Source: Gemmatimonadota bacterium (GTDB taxonomy: Bacteria > Gemmatimonadota > Gemmatimonadetes > Gemmatimonadales > Gemmatimonadaceae). From it: a DNA stretch of 64,000 nucleotides. Within the stretch, counting starts at the first letter, position 1; each line of letters opens with the position of its first letter. Below are positions 6,271 through 26,167 of the stretch, piece after piece. The notes below the pieces were generated by a model, which made no database searches, was not told where the DNA came from, and saw nothing but the letters and a program-made list of their open reading frames with translations. Location: NCBI GenBank assembly GCA_016874035.1, contig VGVM01000001.1, positions 101,878 through 165,877 on the forward strand. The letters are read 5' to 3'. A program made the position numbers and the translations under genes.

Positions 6271-7767
6271 CTAAGGCGTAGCCGTACGCATCGGTGCCAT
6301 CTCCAACCGCACGCCACCGGGTCCCTCACGGAAACCCATGTACACCACCCCGGGCCCGAATCCGGCAATCACGCGGCCGGCGGGCAGCAGCACGCGATCC
6401 GTGAGCTTGCCTTGGGCGTTGATCACGTCATACACGGAGCCGCCGTTGTACACGGTGTTCGTGCGCACCCAGAGGTTGCCATCCATGTCGGCCTTTGTCG
6501 CGCCGGCGCCGAACGGCGGGGCGTAGTCGGGGAGTTCCGACGGATCCACGAAGTTGAGCGGCGGAATCTGCAGCGTCGTCTGCGACGGCGCGCCGCCAGC
6601 GGTTGCCCCAGGGGCGGCGCCGCGCGCGGGAGGCGCATCGCCACCACCCATCCGAAACTCCATGACTCGCATGCGGTCGCCCGCACCCGCGGCGGCCGCG
6701 CCGGCCGCCATCGCTTCGAAGCCTGCGAGCCCGGCGGCGCCGGCCATGCCCGCCAGCGCTGCCGCACCGCCCCCGGACTGCATCACCTGCATGGCGCGTT
6801 GCCGCTGCGCTTCCAGCGCCGTCTTCGCGGAATCAATGAACGCGACCTTGGCCGAATCGGTCAGGCGGATCCAATCGTGCGGGATCTTGTGCGATGCCGC
6901 CACCTTGCCCTCACCATCCACGTAATCCACGCGGAAATCCTGGCCCCGCACCAGGGCGACCCGACCGTCCGACGCGACGGCCCAGTCGTCCTCCACCTGC
7001 AGCGGGTTGAGCCGCGTGGTCACGCTCATCCGGCCATCGGTACCCCGATTCACGTTGATGTTCTGCCTTGGAATCTTGACGTGCCCGACCGTGTCCACCT
7101 TCCTTGTGTCGAGTGCGACCCGGACCACGGCGAGCGACTCCGGCAACTGTGGCATCTGGAACTGCGGCCCGTTGGCGCCCGGCGTTGGCGCGGCCATCCG
7201 GAACTGCGGCATCCCGCGGTACACGAGGCGGCCCTGGGCATCGAAGCCCGGAGTTCCGTTGGGGCCACCGATCAGCGAGATCACTTCGTTTGGCCGTGGG
7301 ACCGACATCACCCGAGTGACGTTGCCCGTCGGGTCAATCACGAGCATCGAGAGCGACTGCGGGTCCACGAAGAGCGTCGAGTCGCCCTTGTAGGCGATCA
7401 GTCCCGCCGCCCGCGAGCTGTACGCGTTCGCAGTCGCCGGGGTCGTGTCTGCGATCACCTTGAACGAGCCGAGCCCGGGCTCGAACATCAGGACGCGACG
7501 GCCGAAGTTGTCATTGACGAGCACACGCCCGTTCGGCAGTGCGCGGGCCTGAGACACGGCGCCGAGCAGCTCCGCGGACTTGGCCGTGGCGGAAGAGAGC
7601 GTGCGGATGGCCGGGAGCGCGCTGCTGGTCGCCGGTGCGGCGCCCTGCGCCAGGGCGCGCTGCGGCGCTGCGGCCAGCGAGATCGCGGCGAGCGACGCCA
7701 CGAGCCTGCGCGATGCGTGCGAGGCGGTTCGCGTGAACCGCGCGGAACAATGGGACGTGTAACTCAT
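6271..7767 (-). CDS. Exported 6-bladed-beta-propeller-like protein
   Basis: ATG at 7767, signal ending QRALAQ; propeller-like repeats (LPNGRVLVNDNFGRRVLMFEPGLGSF; DGNLWVRTN). Confidence 0.7.
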   Translation of the reverse strand: MSYTSHCSARFTRTASHASRRLVASLAAISLAAAPQRALAQGAAPATSSALPAIRTLSSATAKSAELLGAVSQARALPNGRVLVNDNFGRRVLMFEPGLGSFKVIADTTPATANAYSSRAAGLIAYKGDSTLFVDPQSLSMLVIDPTGNVTRVMSVPRPNEVISLIGGPNGTPGFDAQGRLVYRGMPQFRMAAPTPGANGPQFQMPQLPESLAVVRVALDTRKVDTVGHVKIPRQNINVNRGTDGRMSVTTRLNPLQVEDDWAVASDGRVALVRGQDFRVDYVDGEGKVAASHKIPHDWIRLTDSAKVAFIDSAKTALEAQRQRAMQVMQSGGGAAALAGMAGAAGLAGFEAMAAGAAAAGAGDRMRVMEFRMGGGDAPPARGAAPGATAGGAPSQTTLQIPPLNFVDPSELPDYAPPFGAGATKADMDGNLWVRTNTVYNGGSVYDVINAQGKLTDRVLLPAGRVIAGFGPGVVYMGFREGPGGVRLEMAPMRTATP

Positions 7768-14857: not shown

Positions 14858-16234
14858 CTACGGATTCCGGTCCGTGCAGGCTTCGGTGCGCCCGGCGGGC
14901 GCCGGCCACTCGGGGTTGTTCGTTTCCGTCTGCGACGGGACCAGCACGACGTCGCTTCCGTACACCCCGCCCTTGAAGTACGCGCCGGTAGGGAACACGC
15001 TGTTCGCGGCCCGGCCGTACTGGCGAACCAGCCGCCGCAAGTCTCCCAGCCGGTGCGCCGTGAAGTACATCCAGAACGCACGCTCGCGGAACAGCATGTC
15101 CACGCGGGCGACGGCCGTACCTGGGTCCACGAGCGGCGCGAGCCCCGTCACGGTCGTGCGCGCCGCGTTCAGCGTTGCCAGGAAGTTCGCGATGTCGCCC
15201 AGCTTCAGGAAGTTCTCGGCTTCGATCATCCGGGCCTCGATGCCGGTGGCTACCGGCGTCGGCGAGTTCCCGGCCGGGTACTGCGAAAAGAGGGGCGTGA
15301 GGGTACCGTCCTGCCCCGCTCCAAGCCTGGTCCCGTCGACTCTCACGCGCGGGTCCTTGCTGCTGACGAAGTCGAGTCCGTTACCGCCCTCCCGGTCCGC
15401 GGCGCCGAAGTTCTTCGTGTCCGACATCCAGTCGAACACGCCGTTCCTCGTCGTGCTGAGGGCGTACTCGGCGTTGAGTACGAAGGAGGTTGGCACCGCG
15501 AGAGACCCGGCGCCGTCACCCCCGGCCGCAACGACCGCCGCCGCCCGGTCATACTGATTGATGTCGACATACATGCGGCCCTTGCCCACGCGCGCGGCGT
15601 TCCGGAATGGCTGGTCCGCGGCCGACGTCGAGAGGATCCCCAGCGCGGAGTCGAATGCCGCCAGTGATCGCGCGTAAAGCTGCGCCGTGCTGAGCACCGT
15701 GGTGCTCGGATTCTCGTCGGTGAACTTGGAGACGGGAACACCGTTGCAGTACGTCTCCGCCATCATCACGTAGATCAAACCCTGCAGCACATACAGCTGC
15801 CCCACTTGCGTCGCCTTCGCGGAAGCCGGGGTCGGGGGGTATGCGTTCAACCCGCGAACGGCACGCACGCTGCCGTTGAGCGCGCTGCCGAACGGTGACC
15901 ATGGAGAGGTGGCCGGGAACTGGGTGTTGTTGAGCGATCGCCGGTCGAGGTGTTCCGTGCCGTTGCGTGCCACGAAGGCCTCGTCACTGAGGATCGCGCT
16001 CGTCAGCACGAGGTTCACTCCCGCGTTCACGAAGTTGTTGAAGAGGCCGATGGCGGCGACGCGCTGGGCCTGGGCCCCCGCGGCCGAAGTCACCTTGTCG
16101 GTCGTGATGATGTCGGGCGTGTTCACCTCGAGCAACTCGGTCGTACTGCAGGCTGCCACGGCCAGCAGGGCGGCAGTGGCGAGCGATCGGCCGCGCCGAT
16201 CGCCTCTCCCGCGCCCGGAGTTTGAAATGGTCAT
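14858..16234 (-). CDS. SusD/RagB-like outer-membrane lipoprotein
   Basis: ATG 16234; lipobox LLAVAACSTTELLEVNTPDII; C-terminal RERAFWMYFTAHRLGDLRRLVRQYGR. Confidence 0.88.
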   Translation of the reverse strand: MTISNSGRGRGDRRGRSLATAALLAVAACSTTELLEVNTPDIITTDKVTSAAGAQAQRVAAIGLFNNFVNAGVNLVLTSAILSDEAFVARNGTEHLDRRSLNNTQFPATSPWSPFGSALNGSVRAVRGLNAYPPTPASAKATQVGQLYVLQGLIYVMMAETYCNGVPVSKFTDENPSTTVLSTAQLYARSLAAFDSALGILSTSAADQPFRNAARVGKGRMYVDINQYDRAAAVVAAGGDGAGSLAVPTSFVLNAEYALSTTRNGVFDWMSDTKNFGAADREGGNGLDFVSSKDPRVRVDGTRLGAGQDGTLTPLFSQYPAGNSPTPVATGIEARMIEAENFLKLGDIANFLATLNAARTTVTGLAPLVDPGTAVARVDMLFRERAFWMYFTAHRLGDLRRLVRQYGRAANSVFPTGAYFKGGVYGSDVVLVPSQTETNNPEWPAPAGRTEACTDRNP

Positions 16235-16277
16235 CTTGGGATCCGCTCGTATCGGAAGTTGGGGGGATGGTCGCGTG

Positions 16278-19200
16278 TCAGTAGGCCACGTTGATGCGGG
16301 TGATCCAGTAGCGGAGCGGTGGCTCGGAGAAGAAGTCGTTGGCGGCCTGGCCGCCGCTGTTGGCTTCGGGATCGAGGCCCGGGAACTTCGTCCAGACAAC
16401 CTTGATGTTCCGGCCACTCAGCGCGATGTTCGCCGACCGGCCGCGCAGGTACTTGCTCGTGAAGCGCTGGGGCACGTTGTAGACCACTGACAACTCGCGC
16501 AGGCGGATGAAGTCGTTCGGGACGAACATGCCCCACAGGGTGCGGTTCGCCGAACTCGCGGCCATCAGCGCCGCGGCCTGATCCCCGAGCGGCGCCGTGG
16601 GATCGTTGACGGCCCGGCAGTTGGCGGTCGAAACACAGCGCTGGTTCTGGTAGCCCCAGCTGTTCCAGTAGCCGCCCCGGTAATCAAACAGGGCGGTGAT
16701 GTCCACCAGGCCGCGGAAGAGGCCGACGCGATTGCTCAGCGCAGCTTCGTACTCGGGAAGCGCCGAGCCGCGGAAGCTTTGCCCCTGGTACTTGCCGGTG
16801 ACCGTGTCGACCTGGACTTCGGCCTCCGTGAGGATGCCGTCGTTATTGGCGTCCTTGTATGCAAGGATCTTGCGATCCCAGAGCGCCGAGATCGGGAAGC
16901 CGACCACCCGGCGGACGCCCGGCGACGTGGAGAGCACCACGTCGCCAACCGAGACGATCTTGTTCTTGTTGCGCGAACCGCTGAGGCGCACGTCCCAGCG
17001 GTAGGCGCCGCTCCGGATGATGCCGACGTCGACCGTCAGCTCCTCGCCGCGGTTCTCCACGCCGGCGATGTTCACGGTCTGGCTGCCTCCCGCGCCGAAG
17101 GACGGCGGGAGCGGCCTGGCCAGCAGCGCATCGTGGCTCTGCTTGTTGTACGTCTGGAGCTCAACGCTGACGCGTTCGTCCAGGAACGACAGGTCGGCGC
17201 CGATCTCGAACTCGATCGTCTTCTCCGGCCTCAGGTTGGGGTTGCCGATGGACGACACCACGAGCCCGGGCTGGTCAGCGCCTCCTACGGTAAACGCCTG
17301 CGCGCCGAGGAACGCGAGGGCGGCAGTTGTGCCGGGCTGCACGCCCGACTGGCCGAGCGCGGCGCGCAGCCGGAGCTGGTCGAGCGTGAAACGCTTGGGG
17401 AACCACGTCTCATCCGAGATGACGTACGACAGCGCGAACCGCGGGTAGATGGTGGCTCCCGTCGTGCGTCCGAACGCGCTGTTCTGGTCCTGCCGGATCC
17501 CGACCGTCCCGAAGAGCCGATCGCGGTGGCTCACCTGCTCCTCGAGGTACCACCCGTAGGTGGCGTTCTCGGTCGTCGACTCGCTGATCAGGCGCTGCGA
17601 GGCCGAGTTCGGCGTGGAGACCCCCGGCCCGAACCCGTATCCACTGCCGCTCGCCGACTGGAAGTTGTCCTTGAACCACTGCGCGCCAAGCGTGGTGCGG
17701 GACTGCACCGTGCCCGTCACGGCGCGTGTCGCCGTGGCTCCAAGGTCCACGGAGTACTTCGTGTTGAGCGTACGGGACAGGCCCTTGCCCGAGAACCCCT
17801 GGCCGGCGCTCGGCCCCCATGCGGCCTGCTGGTTGGTCCCCTCGCCGAGCAGCTGGAGCTGGTAACCGTAGTTCGAGGCCTGGTCGATGCCCACGACGCT
17901 CCGAACGCTGAGCCACGGTTTCGGCTGCCAGTTCAGCTGCGTCGAGCTGAGGAACCGCTTTTCGATGCTCTTGAGTTCGACCGAGAAGATGTCCCCCATG
18001 AACTCCCGCTGCGTGCCGAGCGTGTGCTGGCCGTCATTGCGCAGCGTCGCCGAGCATTTGACGCACCCCGGCGCGGTAAAGAGCTGGAAGAACATCCCGG
18101 CGAAAAAGCCGCCATCGAAGGGTGTGAAGAGGGTCTTGTCGATGTACCCCGTGCTGACGCCGAGCGTGGCCGTCCGCGAGAGGCCGATCTGGAAATTGCC
18201 GCGCAGGCTCGTGACGTCGAGTTGATTCGGATAGCGCTGCGTGGTGCGCGGCGCCGAGCCACGCACGTTCGTGATGCGCGCGACCTCCGAGTCGGGCATC
18301 ACGAACGGCCCCGTCTCGTGCTCGCGCACGGCGGAGACAAAGTACCGGAGAAACTCCGTGCCGCCCGAGACCTGCCCGCCCCACTGCACGCGCGGGGTCC
18401 GCCGCAGGCCTCCGCTCGCGTTGCGGAACGGGCTGGTCAGCGGATTCATGAAGGGGTTGTTGCGCGTCAGGCTGTCGACGCGGCACTGGCGGAGCGCGGA
18501 CTGGGAGATCTTGCACTGAATGTCGCCGCCCACCGGCTGGCCCTGGGCGTTCAGGTTGCGGCCCCAGCTGCGCCAGTTCTCCTCAAACTCCGACGGCTGC
18601 TCCACCAGGCCTTGTTCAAGGAAGAAGGTCCACCGCGCGTTGCCCGCCTCGCCTCGCTTGGTCTTGATGACCAGGACGCCGTTCGTCGCCGCCGTACCAT
18701 AGAGCGCCGCTGCCGCCGGCCCCTTGATCACGTCGATCGTTGCGATCTCGTTCGGATTCAGGTCGGACAACCGGGAGCTGGAGAACTGCGTGAAGGCCAG
18801 GCCCGAGGACCCTTCGAACCGAACGCCGTCCAGGATGACCAGCGGATCGTTCGTGAGCGAGAGTGAGCTGATGCCGCGAATCCGGATGGTCGGGGTGGCG
18901 CCCGTGGCGCCGGTGCCCTGGATGATCTGAAGGTTCGCCGTTCGCGCCTGCAGGAGCTGCTGCACCGTGGCCACTGGTGCCGTGGCCACCAGCGAATCAG
19001 CCTTGAGGGACGACACCACGTTGCCGAGCTCGCGCCGGGCCTGAATGCCGGTGGCCGTGGTGACGACCTCCTCGAGCCGCGTGACCGCCTTCGTGAGCGC
19101 AAAGTTGACCGTGACGTCGCCACTCTCGGGCACGGTGACGGACTTGCTCATCGGCTGGTAGCCGATGCGCATGGCCCGCAGCGAGATGGTGCCCGGGGGC

Positions 19201-19460
19201 ACGCCGGGAATGCTGTAATCGCCGTTGTTGCTCGTCGTGGCGGCGCGACGCGTGCCCTCGATGACGACCTGCACCGCGGGAATCGGTACGTCGCCTTCCG
19301 CGTCGACGACGCGCCCGCGGATGGTCGCCAGCCGCGCTGGCACCTCGCGTGAACGGGAAGCGACGGGGTTCGTGTCGCCATTCGACTGCGCAATGCCGGG
19401 CGAGGCGAACGCCGTGCATGCCAACAGCGCGCTCGCGGCCCGGCGGAGGGTGGGGGACAT
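16278..19460 (-). CDS. SusC/RagA-like TonB-linked outer-membrane protein
   Basis: ATG 19460 (MSPTLRRAASALLACTAFASPGIAQ); carboxypeptidase-regulatory domain, plug IRGISSLSLTNDPLVILDGVR, IDVIKGPAAAALYGTAATNGVLVIKTKRG. Confidence 0.92.
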   Translation of the reverse strand: MSPTLRRAASALLACTAFASPGIAQSNGDTNPVASRSREVPARLATIRGRVVDAEGDVPIPAVQVVIEGTRRAATTSNNGDYSIPGVPPGTISLRAMRIGYQPMSKSVTVPESGDVTVNFALTKAVTRLEEVVTTATGIQARRELGNVVSSLKADSLVATAPVATVQQLLQARTANLQIIQGTGATGATPTIRIRGISSLSLTNDPLVILDGVRFEGSSGLAFTQFSSSRLSDLNPNEIATIDVIKGPAAAALYGTAATNGVLVIKTKRGEAGNARWTFFLEQGLVEQPSEFEENWRSWGRNLNAQGQPVGGDIQCKISQSALRQCRVDSLTRNNPFMNPLTSPFRNASGGLRRTPRVQWGGQVSGGTEFLRYFVSAVREHETGPFVMPDSEVARITNVRGSAPRTTQRYPNQLDVTSLRGNFQIGLSRTATLGVSTGYIDKTLFTPFDGGFFAGMFFQLFTAPGCVKCSATLRNDGQHTLGTQREFMGDIFSVELKSIEKRFLSSTQLNWQPKPWLSVRSVVGIDQASNYGYQLQLLGEGTNQQAAWGPSAGQGFSGKGLSRTLNTKYSVDLGATATRAVTGTVQSRTTLGAQWFKDNFQSASGSGYGFGPGVSTPNSASQRLISESTTENATYGWYLEEQVSHRDRLFGTVGIRQDQNSAFGRTTGATIYPRFALSYVISDETWFPKRFTLDQLRLRAALGQSGVQPGTTAALAFLGAQAFTVGGADQPGLVVSSIGNPNLRPEKTIEFEIGADLSFLDERVSVELQTYNKQSHDALLARPLPPSFGAGGSQTVNIAGVENRGEELTVDVGIIRSGAYRWDVRLSGSRNKNKIVSVGDVVLSTSPGVRRVVGFPISALWDRKILAYKDANNDGILTEAEVQVDTVTGKYQGQSFRGSALPEYEAALSNRVGLFRGLVDITALFDYRGGYWNSWGYQNQRCVSTANCRAVNDPTAPLGDQAAALMAASSANRTLWGMFVPNDFIRLRELSVVYNVPQRFTSKYLRGRSANIALSGRNIKVVWTKFPGLDPEANSGGQAANDFFSEPPLRYWITRINVAY

Positions 19461-19637
19461 CACCGCCTCCTTCCTTAGGGTGGGTGGATTTCTTGAACAT
19501 GGAGCACCAGGCTCCGGCTGTCCAGTCTGCACCGCCCCGCGCGGGCGCAGGCTCGGTCGATGACCGCGCGCCGGGTGACTCGGCGCGGCGACGGTTGGCT
19601 GGTTGCCCTTCCCCTGCGGGCGGCGTAGCATCTCCTG

Positions 19638-22600
19638 ATGCGAACACTCACGCTTGCCGGCGCGCTGCTCGCCACTCAGGCGGCTGCCCAGCCACCCGGA
19701 CGAGACCCCACCAACGCGCTGACCCTCGCGACGCCCCGGACCGTCAGGTTCACGACCGATGAAGGGACGTGGATGTCCGTGGATGTCTCGCCCGACGCCT
19801 CCACGATCCTCTTCGATCATCTGGGTGATCTCTACACGATGCCGATCGGCGGCGGCAGGGCGACCCGCATCGTCGGTGGCACCGCTGTTGACGTCCAGCC
19901 GCGTTATTCCCCCGACGGCAAGTGGATCGCGTTCATGTCCGATCGCGGCGGCGTCGATGCAACGTGGGTTGTCGATGCCACGGGCAAGCAGGCGCGCCAG
20001 CTCGTCCCGGGCGGGTCGCAGCCGGCATGGACGCCCGACGGAAAGTTTGTGGTCACCGGCAATCGCATGGTCGATCTTCGTGGCGGGACGGGAGTCACTC
20101 TCACCGCCACCGGCGACGACGGCGGCCGCGGCGGACGGGCGGGCGGGGGAGGCGCGGGAGGCGCCGCCCCAGGCGCCACCGGAGCGTCGTTCACGCAGGA
20201 TGGGCGGTATGTCTGGTTCCAGGCTCCCAACGGGCAGCAGGCGTATCGGTACGATCGCCTTCGCGGCGTGATCGGGTACCAGACGAACGTCGCGGGCGGC
20301 GCATTCCGCCCCATGGTGAGTCGCGATGGCCAGGCGCTCGCCTACTTCACTCGCTACGAGGCGAAGACGGCGCTGGTGGTGCGCGATCTCGCGACGGGCG
20401 CCGAACGCTGGGTGCTCATGGGTACGCATCCGGAGGCTCCCGGGCCCCCGGGGTTTGGTCCGCTCCCGGGTTCCGCCTGGCTCCCCGATGGCAGGTCGAT
20501 CATCACGAGCTACGACGGCAAGCTGTGGCGCATCGACGTGGCGACCGGCAAGAGCGTCCTGATTCCCTTCACGGTCGACGTGGAGCAGTCGCTCGGCGCA
20601 CTCGTCAAGGGGTCGCATCGGATCGGCGACTCGGTGACGGTCCGCGAGATCCGCGAGCCGGCCCTCTCCCCGGATGGCCGCCGCGTCGCCTTCACGGCGC
20701 TCGGCAAGGTGTACGTGATGGATCTCGCAGGCCGGGCGCCGCAGCGGCTGACCAATGCGACACACCTCGTCGAGTCCTCGCCGGCGTGGTCACCCGATGG
20801 ACAGTCCATCGTCTACGCCACCTGGAGTGACGGCGCGGGAGGCGACATTCACCGGGTCGACGCACGTGGAGGCACACCGGGCAATCTCACGCGCGCGCCC
20901 GCCTTCTACTCGCGGATCACGCTCTCACACGATGGATCCCGCATCGTGTTCGTCCGCGCGCCCCGGCGCGCGGTCACCTTGATGGGGAATGACGACGTCG
21001 TGCAGGCGCGGACGCCGGCGGGGGCGGGTTCGGAGCTGAACCTCGAGCTTCGGTGGATGCCGGCCGGGGGCGGGACGCAACACCACATCACGATGGTGGC
21101 CGATCTCGGACCTCTTGCGCCGGGCGGCGGGCCGCACCTCACCTCCGACACGAGCCGGGTGTTCTATCACGATGGCAGCGCGCTCGTCTCGGTCGGTTGG
21201 GACGGCGCCGACCGGCGCGTGGTGCTGGCCGGGGCCACCTCGCAGACCGTGCTCGCGCCCGACGGGTCTTCCGTGCTGAGTCGGGCCGGACGTCGCCGGC
21301 AGATCTACCTGTTCGAGCGGCCGCAGGCGGCCGATTCGATCACGATCGACCCGGCCGCGGCCACGCCGCCGGTGCCGGTGCGGCGCCTCACGCGCGCGGG
21401 CGGCGACTTTCCCGCCTGGTCGCTGGACGGCACCAAGGCGGTCTGGAGTCTCGGCTCGTCACTCTTTGTCTACGACGTTGCGCAAGGAGAGAAGGCCCTG
21501 GCCGATTCCCTCGCGGCGGCGATCGCGCGAGCGGGGCCGGCCGGCGGCGCCGATTCCACCCAGCGTCCGCCGGGTGATTCGGCGGCCGCGGCCCAGTCGC
21601 GCGGCGCCCCTGCCTACGAGGCGACGCGATACGACGTGACAATCACCGTCGGCGCCGACCGGCCGTCGGGCGTGCTCGTGCTGCGTGGTGCGCGCATCGT
21701 GACGATGAAGGGCCGCGAGGTGATCGAGAATGGCGACATCGTGATCACGGGCAACCGCATCACCGCTGTCGGCGCGCGCGGCCGCGCGGCGATCCCGCGG
21801 GGCGCGCGCGTGATCGACGTGGGTGGTACGACCATCGTGCCGGGCTTCGTCGATGTGCGCGCTGCCAGCGCGGTGGCGCCCCAGGCGCACCGCACGATCG
21901 TCGCGCAGTACCTTGCCAACCTGGCGTTCGGCGTCACCACGATGCGCGATCCTGAGGCAGCGGCATTCGACGTGTTCACGTATGCCGACCGGGCCGGAAC
22001 CGGCGAACTGCTGGGTCCGCGGGTGTTCGCCACCGGCCCCGCCGTTCTCGATTCCGGCGCCACCCTGCGGACACCGGCAGAGGCGCGCGACTTCGTCGGC
22101 CCGTACGCCAGCGCGTTTCGCAGCAACACGATTCGCGCGGATCTGACGGCCCCGCGCCCCGACCGCCAGCGATTCCTCGCCGCCTCCGGCGCGCTCGGCC
22201 TCACGGCCGTCGCGGCGTCGGCGCCCGATCTCAAGCGGAGCCTGAGCGCGATTCTGGACGGCTACGCGGATCACCAGGGGCACTTCGACATCTTCCCGGT
22301 GCGCGGCGATCTCGCGAAGCTCATCGCGGAATCGGGAACGGTGTACACCCCGAACTTCCTCGGTCGCGTCGCGGGACGAGTCGGCATGGAGCACATCCTG
22401 GCCACCGAGAAGCCGCACGCGGATCCCAGGCTGCAGCGCTTCTATTATCACAAGGACCTGGACCGCCTGGTCCGCGCGCGCAGTCCGTGGAATTCGGCGG
22501 ACGAGTACGCGTTCAGCGACATCGCGGCGGGCGCCGCCCGCATCGTCGAGGCCGGCGGCAAGGTCGCCGTCGGTTCCGGCGGATCGGTGCAGGGCCTCGC

Positions 22601-22916
22601 CTTCCACTGGAACATGTGGCTCCTCGCCAGCGGGGGACTGTCGAATCACGACGTCCTTCGCGCCGCGACGGCGAGCGGCGCTGATGCCATTGGCGTCGCG
22701 GGCGACCTCGGGTCGATCGAGCCCGGCAAGCTTGCGGACCTGGTGGTGCTCGACCGGAATCCGCTCACGGACATCCGCAACTCGGTGTCGCTGCGCTACG
22801 TGGTGCACAACGGGCGCGTGTACGACGCCGCGACGCTCGACCAGGTCGCGCCGATGGTGAGGAAGCTCGACCAGCCCTGGTGGACAGCAGCCGAACCCGT
22901 GGGAGGGGCCCGTTGA
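19638..22916 (+). CDS. PD40/TolB-like propeller fused to amidohydrolase-like domain lacking metal-ligand His motifs
   Basis: RFTTDEGTWMSVDVSPDASTILFDHLGDLYTMPIGGG; C-terminal fold similar to 22916..26167 but VDVRAASA replaces VDVHAHTW and VGSGGSVQG replaces VGAHHEVQG. Confidence 0.87.
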   Translation: MRTLTLAGALLATQAAAQPPGRDPTNALTLATPRTVRFTTDEGTWMSVDVSPDASTILFDHLGDLYTMPIGGGRATRIVGGTAVDVQPRYSPDGKWIAFMSDRGGVDATWVVDATGKQARQLVPGGSQPAWTPDGKFVVTGNRMVDLRGGTGVTLTATGDDGGRGGRAGGGGAGGAAPGATGASFTQDGRYVWFQAPNGQQAYRYDRLRGVIGYQTNVAGGAFRPMVSRDGQALAYFTRYEAKTALVVRDLATGAERWVLMGTHPEAPGPPGFGPLPGSAWLPDGRSIITSYDGKLWRIDVATGKSVLIPFTVDVEQSLGALVKGSHRIGDSVTVREIREPALSPDGRRVAFTALGKVYVMDLAGRAPQRLTNATHLVESSPAWSPDGQSIVYATWSDGAGGDIHRVDARGGTPGNLTRAPAFYSRITLSHDGSRIVFVRAPRRAVTLMGNDDVVQARTPAGAGSELNLELRWMPAGGGTQHHITMVADLGPLAPGGGPHLTSDTSRVFYHDGSALVSVGWDGADRRVVLAGATSQTVLAPDGSSVLSRAGRRRQIYLFERPQAADSITIDPAAATPPVPVRRLTRAGGDFPAWSLDGTKAVWSLGSSLFVYDVAQGEKALADSLAAAIARAGPAGGADSTQRPPGDSAAAAQSRGAPAYEATRYDVTITVGADRPSGVLVLRGARIVTMKGREVIENGDIVITGNRITAVGARGRAAIPRGARVIDVGGTTIVPGFVDVRAASAVAPQAHRTIVAQYLANLAFGVTTMRDPEAAAFDVFTYADRAGTGELLGPRVFATGPAVLDSGATLRTPAEARDFVGPYASAFRSNTIRADLTAPRPDRQRFLAASGALGLTAVAASAPDLKRSLSAILDGYADHQGHFDIFPVRGDLAKLIAESGTVYTPNFLGRVAGRVGMEHILATEKPHADPRLQRFYYHKDLDRLVRARSPWNSADEYAFSDIAAGAARIVEAGGKVAVGSGGSVQGLAFHWNMWLLASGGLSNHDVLRAATASGADAIGVAGDLGSIEPGKLADLVVLDRNPLTDIRNSVSLRYVVHNGRVYDAATLDQVAPMVRKLDQPWWTAAEPVGGAR

Positions 22917-25900
22917 TGCGCACATTTGGGTGGATTGTACCGGCGGCCGCGATCGCGGTTGCGGCGGCCGAGGTGGCGGCGCAGGCGTCACAGCCGGCGA
23001 AGCCGCGCGCCTACACGGTGACGGCGGGATCGGCGCCGCGCGACCCGACGAACGCGCTGCCGCTGCGGACGACGCGCATCGCGCGCTTCACGACGGACGA
23101 AGGGACGTGGATGTCGCTCTCCGTGTCGCCCGACGGGCGTACCATCCTGTTCGATCTGCTCGGCGACCTCTATACCCTCCCCATCGCCGGTGGCAAGGCA
23201 ACGCGCATCATGGGCGGCAACCAGCTCGATGTGCAGCCACGCTACTCGCCCGACGGTCGCCGAATCGTGTTCGTGTCGGACCGATCCGGCAGCGACCAGG
23301 CGTGGATCGCGAACGCCGACGGGTCGGACCCCGTCAAGCTGACGAAATTCCCGAGCGGCGCCGTGTCGTACCCCGTGTGGATGGACAACGCGTACGTGCT
23401 CGTCCGGCAGAGCCTGTTCCACACGGCCGGCGGCGATGGCGTTGGCGTGCCGTTCGGCGCGGGCGCGACGAGCTTTTCGCCGGACGGGAAGCGCGCGTAC
23501 ACGTCGGGGCGGGGCGGCCAGATCACGATGTACGATCGGTCGAGCGGCCGTGGTCATGTGGCGGTCAGCACGCCTGGCGGTGCGATGCAGGTGAACGTCA
23601 GCCCCGACGGAAAGAGACTGGCGTATTTCACGCGCTATGACATGGCCACCACGCTCGTCGTGCGCGACATCGACTCGGGCGACGAGAAGATCCTTCGCAA
23701 GGGCGTGCAACATGACGCCAGCGCCCGCGCCGCGGGGTTTGGCCTCATGCCGAATCCCTCCTGGATGCCCGATGGGTCCGCGATCCTCACCACGTGGGAC
23801 GGCAAGATCTGGAAGGTGGATGCGAGCACGGGACAGGCCGAGAACATCCCCTTCACGGCCGACGTGGAGCAGTACATGGGCCCGCTGTCGCTCTTCCAGT
23901 ACCCGATCACCGACACCTTCCTCGCGCGACAGATTCGCGACGCGACGCCCTCTCCCGACGCGACGCAACTTGCCTTTACCGCGCTGGACAAGCTCTACAT
24001 CACGAGCCTCGCGGGCGGCACGCCGAGGCGCGTCACGAGCGCCGAACACGTCGTCGAGCATTCGCCGGCGTGGTCGCCGGACGGGCGCTCCATCGTGTTC
24101 GCGACCTGGACCGACGAGCGGGCCGGTGACCTCTATCGCGTGAACGCCGACGGGTCCGGGCTGCGGAAAATCACGCGGACCTCCTCGTTCTACGCGAGGC
24201 CGGTGTTCTCGCCCGATGGGCGGCGCATCGTGTTCGCCACGGGGCCGTGGGTGCCCCGGCGCAATTTTGTCGACAACCTCAGCGGCGCGCTGGACGACGG
24301 CCCGCTTTCGTTCGCGTGGATGGACGCGGACGGCGGCAAGGTGCACGAGATCACGGCCGTCGGCAACGTCTCGCAGATCCCCGAAGGGCCGATGGCGCAT
24401 TTCGGGCCCGACACGAGCCGCATCCTCTTCGCGACGAACGCGGGACTGCAATCCGTGCGCTGGGACGGTTCCGACCGCAAGACCGTGTACACGGGCGACC
24501 CGATCGTGCTGTCGCCCACGGGGACGCACGGATTCGCGCTCAACAGCGGCACCCAGCGGCTCCACGTGTTTCCGGCGCCGATGGTGGGGCGGCCCACCGC
24601 GCTGAACGTGCGCGCGGACACGTCCGGCGTCCCGGCGCCGGTCGCCATCGAGGTGGGAGGCGAGTTCCCGGGGTGGAGCAGCGACGGTCGCTACGTGCAT
24701 TTCTCGCTCGGCCGGTCGTTCTTCCTTTACGACGTCGCCGAGGCGATGCGGGCGCGGGAGGATTCGATTCAGCAGGCATGGCCGAAGCGCCTGGCGGGCG
24801 ACACGCTTCCCGTTCCCGGCGCCGATACGCTGCCCATGCGGGCGGCGTACACGCCGAAGCGCTTCGACATCAAGGTCCAGGTCGCCGGATACAAGCCGAG
24901 TGGTGTCATGGCGCTCAGGGGCGCTCGCATCATCAGCATGAACGGCGACGAGGTCATCGAGAAAGGCGATATCGTCGTCACGGACCATCGGATCACGGCC
25001 GTCGGTCCGTCGGGACGCGTGGCCATTCCTGCCGGCGCGAAGGTGTTCGACGTGTCCGGCAAGACGATCATTCCCGGATGGGTGGACGTCCATGCGCACA
25101 CGTGGCCGTCGCGCGGCGTGCACAAGACCTCCGTGCCGGCGTTTCACGCGAACCTCGCCTTCGGCGTGACAACGATGCGGGATCCGCAGACGAGCACGAG
25201 CGACATCATGACCTACGGCGATCGCCTGCGCGCGGGAGACCTGCTTGGCCCGCGGTTCTTCGGGACGGGGCAGGGGGTGTTCAGCGGCGCCCAGGTGAAC
25301 TCGTTGCAGCGCGCGCGCGAGGTGGTTAAGCGCTACGCCGAGTTCTATGAAACGCAGACGCTGAAGCAGTACGTCGCCGGCAATCGGCGCACGCGGCAGT
25401 TGATCGTGATGGCGACGCGGGAGATGGGCCTGACGCCGACGACCGAAGGCGCGGGGGACCTCAAGATGAGCATCACGGAGATGCTCGATGGGTACCCGGG
25501 GCACGAGCACGCCTACGAGATCTATCCGCTCTACAAGGACTTCGCCCTGCTCTCGGCCGCAAGCGAGATCACGTACACCCCGACATTGCTCGTGGCGTAC
25601 GGGGGACCCGAGAACAAGTACTACATGATTGCGCGCGAGAATGCGTACAACGAGGGGCGCCTCAAGCGATTCACGTTCCAGCCCGACCTCGCCCGGCGCA
25701 CGCGGTCCGGAATCTGGGTCCCCGAGGACGAGTTCACGTTCAAGGGCGTCACGGCCGCGGCCGCGAGGATCGTCGCGGCGGGCGGCAAGGTGGGCGTCGG
25801 GGCGCACCACGAAGTGCAGGGGATCGGAACGCCCTGGGACCTGCGTCTGATGTCCGAAGGCGGGATGCCGCTGCATGATGTGCTGCGCGTGGGGACGATC

Positions 25901-26167
25901 TTCGGCGCCGTGTCCATCGGCCTGGACAGGGACCTCGGCTCGATCGAGGCCGGGAAGCTCGCGGATCTCATCGTCCTCGATGCAAATCCCCTCACCGACA
26001 TCGCCAACATCGAGCGCGTCAGGTATGTGATGCGGAACGGGCAGATGTTCGAGTCCGCGTCGCTGGACGAGGTCTGGCCGCGCCAGCGCAAACTGCCCCC
26101 GCAGTGGTGGATGGAGTGGGTGCCTCCGGCGGCGACGCCCAGGACCGGGCCGGTGAAGAGCCCGTAA
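22916..26167 (+). CDS. PD40/TolB-like propeller fused to amidohydrolase (motifs intact)
   Basis: ATG 22916 overlapping upstream TGA (TGATG); IIPGWVDVHAHTW, LDGYPGHEHAYEIYPLYKD, GVGAHHEVQG, LGSIEAGKLADLIVLDANPL. Confidence 0.9.
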   Translation: MRTFGWIVPAAAIAVAAAEVAAQASQPAKPRAYTVTAGSAPRDPTNALPLRTTRIARFTTDEGTWMSLSVSPDGRTILFDLLGDLYTLPIAGGKATRIMGGNQLDVQPRYSPDGRRIVFVSDRSGSDQAWIANADGSDPVKLTKFPSGAVSYPVWMDNAYVLVRQSLFHTAGGDGVGVPFGAGATSFSPDGKRAYTSGRGGQITMYDRSSGRGHVAVSTPGGAMQVNVSPDGKRLAYFTRYDMATTLVVRDIDSGDEKILRKGVQHDASARAAGFGLMPNPSWMPDGSAILTTWDGKIWKVDASTGQAENIPFTADVEQYMGPLSLFQYPITDTFLARQIRDATPSPDATQLAFTALDKLYITSLAGGTPRRVTSAEHVVEHSPAWSPDGRSIVFATWTDERAGDLYRVNADGSGLRKITRTSSFYARPVFSPDGRRIVFATGPWVPRRNFVDNLSGALDDGPLSFAWMDADGGKVHEITAVGNVSQIPEGPMAHFGPDTSRILFATNAGLQSVRWDGSDRKTVYTGDPIVLSPTGTHGFALNSGTQRLHVFPAPMVGRPTALNVRADTSGVPAPVAIEVGGEFPGWSSDGRYVHFSLGRSFFLYDVAEAMRAREDSIQQAWPKRLAGDTLPVPGADTLPMRAAYTPKRFDIKVQVAGYKPSGVMALRGARIISMNGDEVIEKGDIVVTDHRITAVGPSGRVAIPAGAKVFDVSGKTIIPGWVDVHAHTWPSRGVHKTSVPAFHANLAFGVTTMRDPQTSTSDIMTYGDRLRAGDLLGPRFFGTGQGVFSGAQVNSLQRAREVVKRYAEFYETQTLKQYVAGNRRTRQLIVMATREMGLTPTTEGAGDLKMSITEMLDGYPGHEHAYEIYPLYKDFALLSAASEITYTPTLLVAYGGPENKYYMIARENAYNEGRLKRFTFQPDLARRTRSGIWVPEDEFTFKGVTAAAARIVAAGGKVGVGAHHEVQGIGTPWDLRLMSEGGMPLHDVLRVGTIFGAVSIGLDRDLGSIEAGKLADLIVLDANPLTDIANIERVRYVMRNGQMFESASLDEVWPRQRKLPPQWWMEWVPPAATPRTGPVKSP

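Follow-up and report, generated by a model that had tools for sequence, protein, structure and literature searches.

An overlapping pair of exported PD40-amidohydrolase genes in Gemmatimonadota, with one copy a predicted pseudoenzyme

The window, a stretch of 64,000 nucleotides from a Gemmatimonadota genome, contains two overlapping genes for proteins of one architecture, and the first of them (copy 1) very probably encodes a conserved pseudoenzyme that arose by tandem duplication and is co-translated with its active sister (copy 2). We base this reading on metal-site losses that recur in orthologues, on the strict pairing of the two genes, on purifying selection, and on the concentration of the losses in the amidohydrolase domain of copy 1. 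The original prediction had called copy 1 a pseudoenzyme kept as a full-length gene, and the call gains support: the catalytic residues are lost, the alignment places no equivalent ligands nearby, and the gene is held by selection. Its further suggestion, that copy 1 may be a heteromeric partner or a substrate-binding subunit, would be consistent with the overlap and joint occurrence of the two genes.

The gene pair and its metal-site columns

The pair and its immediate surroundings comprise the following features.

16278..19462, minus strand: SusC-like TonB-dependent receptor, divergent from copy 1
19638..22916, plus strand: copy 1 (P0001, 1092 aa), with a signal peptide, a PD40/TolB-like propeller, and an amidohydrolase domain without the metal site; predicted pseudoenzyme
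22901..22908, plus strand: GGGAGGGG, Shine-Dalgarno-like, within the 3' end of copy 1 and 7 nt 5' of the copy 2 ATG, read directly from the sequence
22914..22918, plus strand: TGATG stop-start overlap of copies 1 and 2
22916..26167, plus strand: copy 2 (P0002, 1083 aa), with a signal peptide, a PD40/TolB-like propeller, and an amidohydrolase domain with the family's full set of metal-site residues; predicted active partner

Each N-terminus contains a signal-peptide-like stretch, predicting export, and the PD40 matches (PF07676; E values of 4e-23 and 5e-29 for the two proteins) indicate a PD40/TolB-like propeller. PF01979 and PF07969 score above the cut-off in both proteins in a profile search; copy 2 spans the whole of the Amidohydro_1 profile (positions 1-343), whereas the match of copy 1 is confined to the C-terminal end of the profile (236-343). 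Comparison by hhalign with a single-domain amidohydrolase gives 99.6 to 99.9% probability, in keeping with an amidohydrolase fold. The two proteins align end to end with 46% identity, and the coordinates, the shared layout, the TGATG overlap, and all eight motifs that had been quoted for them are exactly as originally described. Further upstream, a lipoprotein that is probably SusD-like but has no Pfam match (about 14858-16330, minus strand) also diverges from copy 1; it is not conserved beside copy 1 in G303 or G382, two of the genomes with copy 1 orthologues described below.

Metal-site columns were read from an alignment of same-architecture relatives collected in Gemmatimonadota genomes, using for comparison the 58 rows outside the copy 1 clade where these columns are covered, with one distant single-domain row left aside. 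All 58 rows, copy 2 included, carry H-x-H (beta 1), K (beta 4), E (beta 5), E-H (beta 6), and H (beta 8), an invariance counted among the best-scoring relatives, not a random sample of the PD40-amidohydrolase family. The copy 2 residues (H726, H728, K817, E844, H865, and H964) are the same as those of all relatives, and copy 1 reads R-A, R, A, (Q)G, and G at the corresponding columns.

21858..21866, plus strand: copy 1 R741-A-A743 at the family's beta-1 HxH, which pairs with the HxH of the solved prolidase 2qs8 (relatives alignment)
22134..22136, plus strand: copy 1 R833 at the family's invariant beta-4 Lys, the carboxylated-Lys position (relatives alignment, hhalign)
22215..22217, plus strand: copy 1 A860 at the family's invariant Glu, the beta-5 ligand position (relatives alignment, hhalign)
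22275..22280, plus strand: copy 1 Q880-G881 at the family's invariant beta-6 Glu-His (relatives alignment)
22578..22580, plus strand: copy 1 G981 at the family's invariant His, the beta-8 position (relatives alignment, 2qs8 alignment)
25091..25099, plus strand: copy 2 H726-A-H728, beta-1 HxH, retained (relatives alignment)
25805..25807, plus strand: copy 2 H964, beta-8 His, retained (relatives alignment)

The loss of metal-binding motifs first noticed in copy 1 stands against these 58 intact rows, and the beta-4 change from Lys to Arg (R833) is a loss additional to those noticed earlier. Of the 78 family-invariant columns, 27 vary in copy 1, and these include all seven metal-site columns (chance, 3e-4). 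The ligands were located by sequence and profile alignment. By hmmsearch, prolidase-type 2qs8 has its HxH and GTD opposite the family's beta-1 HxH and beta-8 position, and by hhalign, the family's Lys and Glu fall opposite the Lys and the beta-5 His, respectively, of a single-domain amidohydrolase from the same genome. The global hhalign alignment puts beta 8 in the wrong place and is shifted by two at beta 6; beta 8 was therefore placed by the hmmsearch alignment to 2qs8 and beta 6 by the I-x-H-G motif. In metalloBSH, a characterized amidohydrolase, replacing each of six metal-site residues by Ala abolishes activity (PMC13081902). A sequencing or assembly artefact behind the copy 1 losses is ruled out, because orthologues in other genomes carry the same ones.

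The accompanying claim that copy 2 keeps its metal-binding motifs holds for the residues, all of which are present, but they form the pattern of the PD40-amidohydrolase family and not that of textbook amidohydrolases. We note that in the copy 2 domain (24863-26164 of the window) and in all relatives (L017-L120), an invariant Glu occupies the textbook beta-5 His ligand position and an invariant His (GSHGQLQG) the textbook beta-8 Asp position. The metal site of the family looks like one altered family-wide relative to textbook amidohydrolases, and copy 1 would serve as a natural loss-of-site control, supporting which residues form the family's metal centre.

Two readings would leave copy 1 with a metal-binding or catalytic centre. 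In the first, equivalent ligands at shifted positions would still hold metal in copy 1, and several His residues do lie nearby, as in GYADHQGH. However, three copy 1 orthologues keep H879 but G348 (SQAGA) does not, nothing substitutes for the Lys, the Glu, or the beta-8 residue, and the alignment accommodates the losses without a local shift; judged at this sequence level, such displacement is very improbable. In the second, copy 1 would catalyse a reaction at a different centre, metal-free or relocated, to which new polar residues fixed in copy 1 (D805, D835, D842, H919, and R833) could contribute. Near the lost ligands, however, the alignment of copy 1 proteins contains no conserved replacement set of His, Asp, Glu, or Cys resembling a metal site, and among the new acidic or His residues, D835 alone occupies a formerly family-invariant position, and we regard a centre of this kind, metal-free or relocated, as improbable.

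Orthologues, pairing, and selection

Orthologues of copy 1 were taken from a sequence search of genomes and not from a genome-wide peptide-pattern scan, which gave only distant propeller matches and no orthologue. They are present in three other Gemmatimonadota genomes: G303, of the same genus (73% identity); G382, from a different genus within the family (65%); and G348, from a third genus, where a contig end leaves only the C-terminal 230 residues of the protein (65% identity over this part). The losses at beta 4, 5, 6, and 8 are common to all, where covered. At beta 1, two orthologues read HAD and HAQ, with the first His alone remaining, so it is this His that appears to have persisted longest in the copy 1 lineage.

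Directly downstream of each copy 1 orthologue is a copy 2 orthologue (81%, 73%, and 73% identity), and the junction is a TGATG or TAATG overlap in four of the four genomes carrying the pair. Pairing in related genomes, suggested at the outset as a check, is consequently strict: among 288 genomes of the order, both genes occur, adjacent and overlapping, in the same four, and neither was found alone. The order-wide search with copy 2 yielded no solo orthologue, its next best match being a general family member (49%), and no further pairs were found in the class and phylum samples. Three of the four pair-bearing genomes are incomplete (61-74%) and carry the pair on contigs of 5-7 kb cut inside one gene; for these three, a binning error could alter the genus assignment, with the sequences unaffected. 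In G382, the approximately 80 residues after the overlap ATG of copy 2 (L088 2800-3071) are unlike a signal peptide, and the true start may be further in. Upstream of copy 1, the same genome has a series of short, degenerate repeats of the CCCAGTCCCCAGT type (L088 near 6400-6500).

Copy 1 is under purifying selection. Compared with G303 by NG86, it has a dN of 0.197, a dS of 1.278, which is near saturation, and an omega of 0.15; omega for copy 2 is 0.14 in the same pair of genomes. Between the two copy 1 genes, 15% of second and 53% of third codon positions differ, and neutral simulations with similar or lower third-position divergence accumulate a mean of about 9-15 stops, with a minimum of 2 per run, compared with none observed. 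The dN/dS check that had been proposed for copy 1 therefore comes out against neutral evolution, which is rejected by the omega of about 0.15 together with the absence of stops. The HxH positions vary among orthologues (R-A, H-D, and H-Q) in a way resembling stepwise loss, from which one could argue that copy 1 is in decay and persists through its link to an active neighbour. However, with this omega, a reading frame open over the whole available length in every orthologue, and structural invariants retained, decay is hardly credible.

Constraint has been lifted in one domain in particular. Among columns of the amidohydrolase domain that are invariant elsewhere in the family, 22 of 94 are replaced in all copy 1 proteins, compared with 6 of 94 in copy 2 (p 0.002). 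In the propeller, 3 of 53 invariant columns are replaced in copy 1 and 6 of 53 in copy 2, and the two domains of copy 1 differ in this respect (p 0.006). Judged by their sequence order, the 22 columns cluster at motifs expected at the barrel strand ends, which we infer to surround the former active site. Overall, 60% of barrel positions and 56% of propeller positions are identical across all three copy 1 orthologues, so the barrel is no less conserved than the propeller. At 12 of the 22 replaced columns, the three copy 1 proteins share the same new residue (the shared ones include R833, D835, A838, Q880, G909, V911, R914, A977, G981, and A988), which is near the 60% background, so the emptied site appears to be neither hypervariable nor frozen.

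These shared replacements, taken as a sign that the rim of the former active site is non-random, also bear on a rather unlikely alternative, in which copy 1 forms no stable complex with copy 2 and acts as an exported binding protein in its own right. Its emptied barrel and its propeller would then take up a ligand, such as the substrate or the product of copy 2, and either sense it or pass it on. The SusC-like importer that adjoins copy 1 divergently in this genome would suit such a role. Nonetheless, strict co-occurrence and coupled translation with copy 2 favour a stoichiometric relation, and the receptor does not adjoin copy 1 in G303 or G382. A functional link between copy 1 and the receptor was dropped because of this absence.

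Origin and proposed role

Copies 1 and 2 fall in sister clades supported at 97% by SH-aLRT, and the stems of the two clades are of similar length (0.67 and 0.62). With either copy left out of the tree, the other groups with the same clade of eight members, an outcome that speaks against long-branch attraction as the source of their sisterhood. The best fit is a tandem duplication after which both copies diverged. The same genome encodes a third full-length PD40-amidohydrolase (G000:C53:8837-12115; L090), with 31-39% identity to copy 2 in pieces and an intact metal site.

We propose that an exported PD40-propeller amidohydrolase was tandemly duplicated, and that copy 1 then lost its entire metal centre and stayed as a non-catalytic partner of copy 2, a proposal that we regard, taken whole, as evenly balanced. 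The two proteins would be translated in a coupled manner from one message, exported, and most likely assembled together, with the dead barrel of copy 1 acting as a structural or regulatory subunit that stabilizes copy 2 or shapes its substrate entry. Copy 2 would perform the metal-dependent hydrolysis, probably of an amide of the peptide or N-acyl amino acid type. The absence of catalysis by copy 1, the assembly of the two proteins, and the substrate are parts of the proposal that we infer, and a heteromeric, structural or regulatory partnership would be the best mechanism. A more specific version, put forward tentatively and with more doubt than confidence, is an exported hydrolase that is functional only when joined in a heteromer to its own metal-free sister, the sister's barrel being rebuilt for ligand binding or gating and the ratio fixed by coupled translation. 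Several considerations count against the proposal: translationally coupled genes often encode proteins that do not interact, only four genomes carry the pair, of which three are incomplete and uncertainly placed, and the dS of copy 1 is close to saturation.

Comparison with known systems

Gemmatimonadota proteins combining a PD40/TolB-like propeller with an amidohydrolase domain (PF07676 and PF01979) have the same layout as the pair, with about 45% identity, and a single genome often encodes more than one of them. Copy 2 carries all the metal-site residues that are invariant in the family, whereas no sampled member apart from copy 1 and its orthologues lacks the metal site. The pair is also the only tandem, overlapping arrangement noticed in the match lists. 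A literature search on this architecture found no described function for this large family, nor any report of an enzyme-pseudoenzyme pair within it. The best solved relatives of the barrel detected by sequence are amidohydrolases of the prolidase or Xaa-Pro dipeptidase type (PDB 2qs8, 3feq, and 3mtw), in which the HxH corresponds. These are single-domain proteins; the PD40-amidohydrolase family instead has a beta-5 Glu and a His at the beta-8 Asp position, and copy 1 has neither.

Enzyme-pseudoenzyme pairs are known in other families. The ATCase of Pseudomonas aeruginosa is inactive without a pseudo-dihydroorotase, an amidohydrolase-superfamily pseudoenzyme needed for assembly and activity, and a fungal multifunctional protein contains a pDHO domain without zinc ligands (PMC7053772). 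The Pseudomonas system resembles the proposed one in that an amidohydrolase-superfamily pseudoenzyme supports a partner enzyme, but the partner is a transcarbamoylase and not an active sister, and the pseudoenzyme has no propeller and belongs to another family. It is also cytoplasmic. In trypanosomatid deoxyhypusine synthase, a dead paralogue activates the live copy in a heterotetramer (PMC3663545). The likeness is the combination of an active enzyme with a catalytically dead paralogue; the fold is unrelated and the organism is a eukaryote. The two synthase genes are not known to be translationally coupled.

Dead enzyme copies surviving as partners of live ones are best documented in eukaryotes and in a few cytoplasmic bacterial complexes. 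The exported, coupled live/dead pair in four bacterial genomes would be a compact system in which to test why a dead amidohydrolase barrel is kept, whether for assembly, gating, or ligand binding. That selection has preserved copy 1 whole and beside its sister in four related bacteria suggests a continuing function, probably that of a non-catalytic partner.
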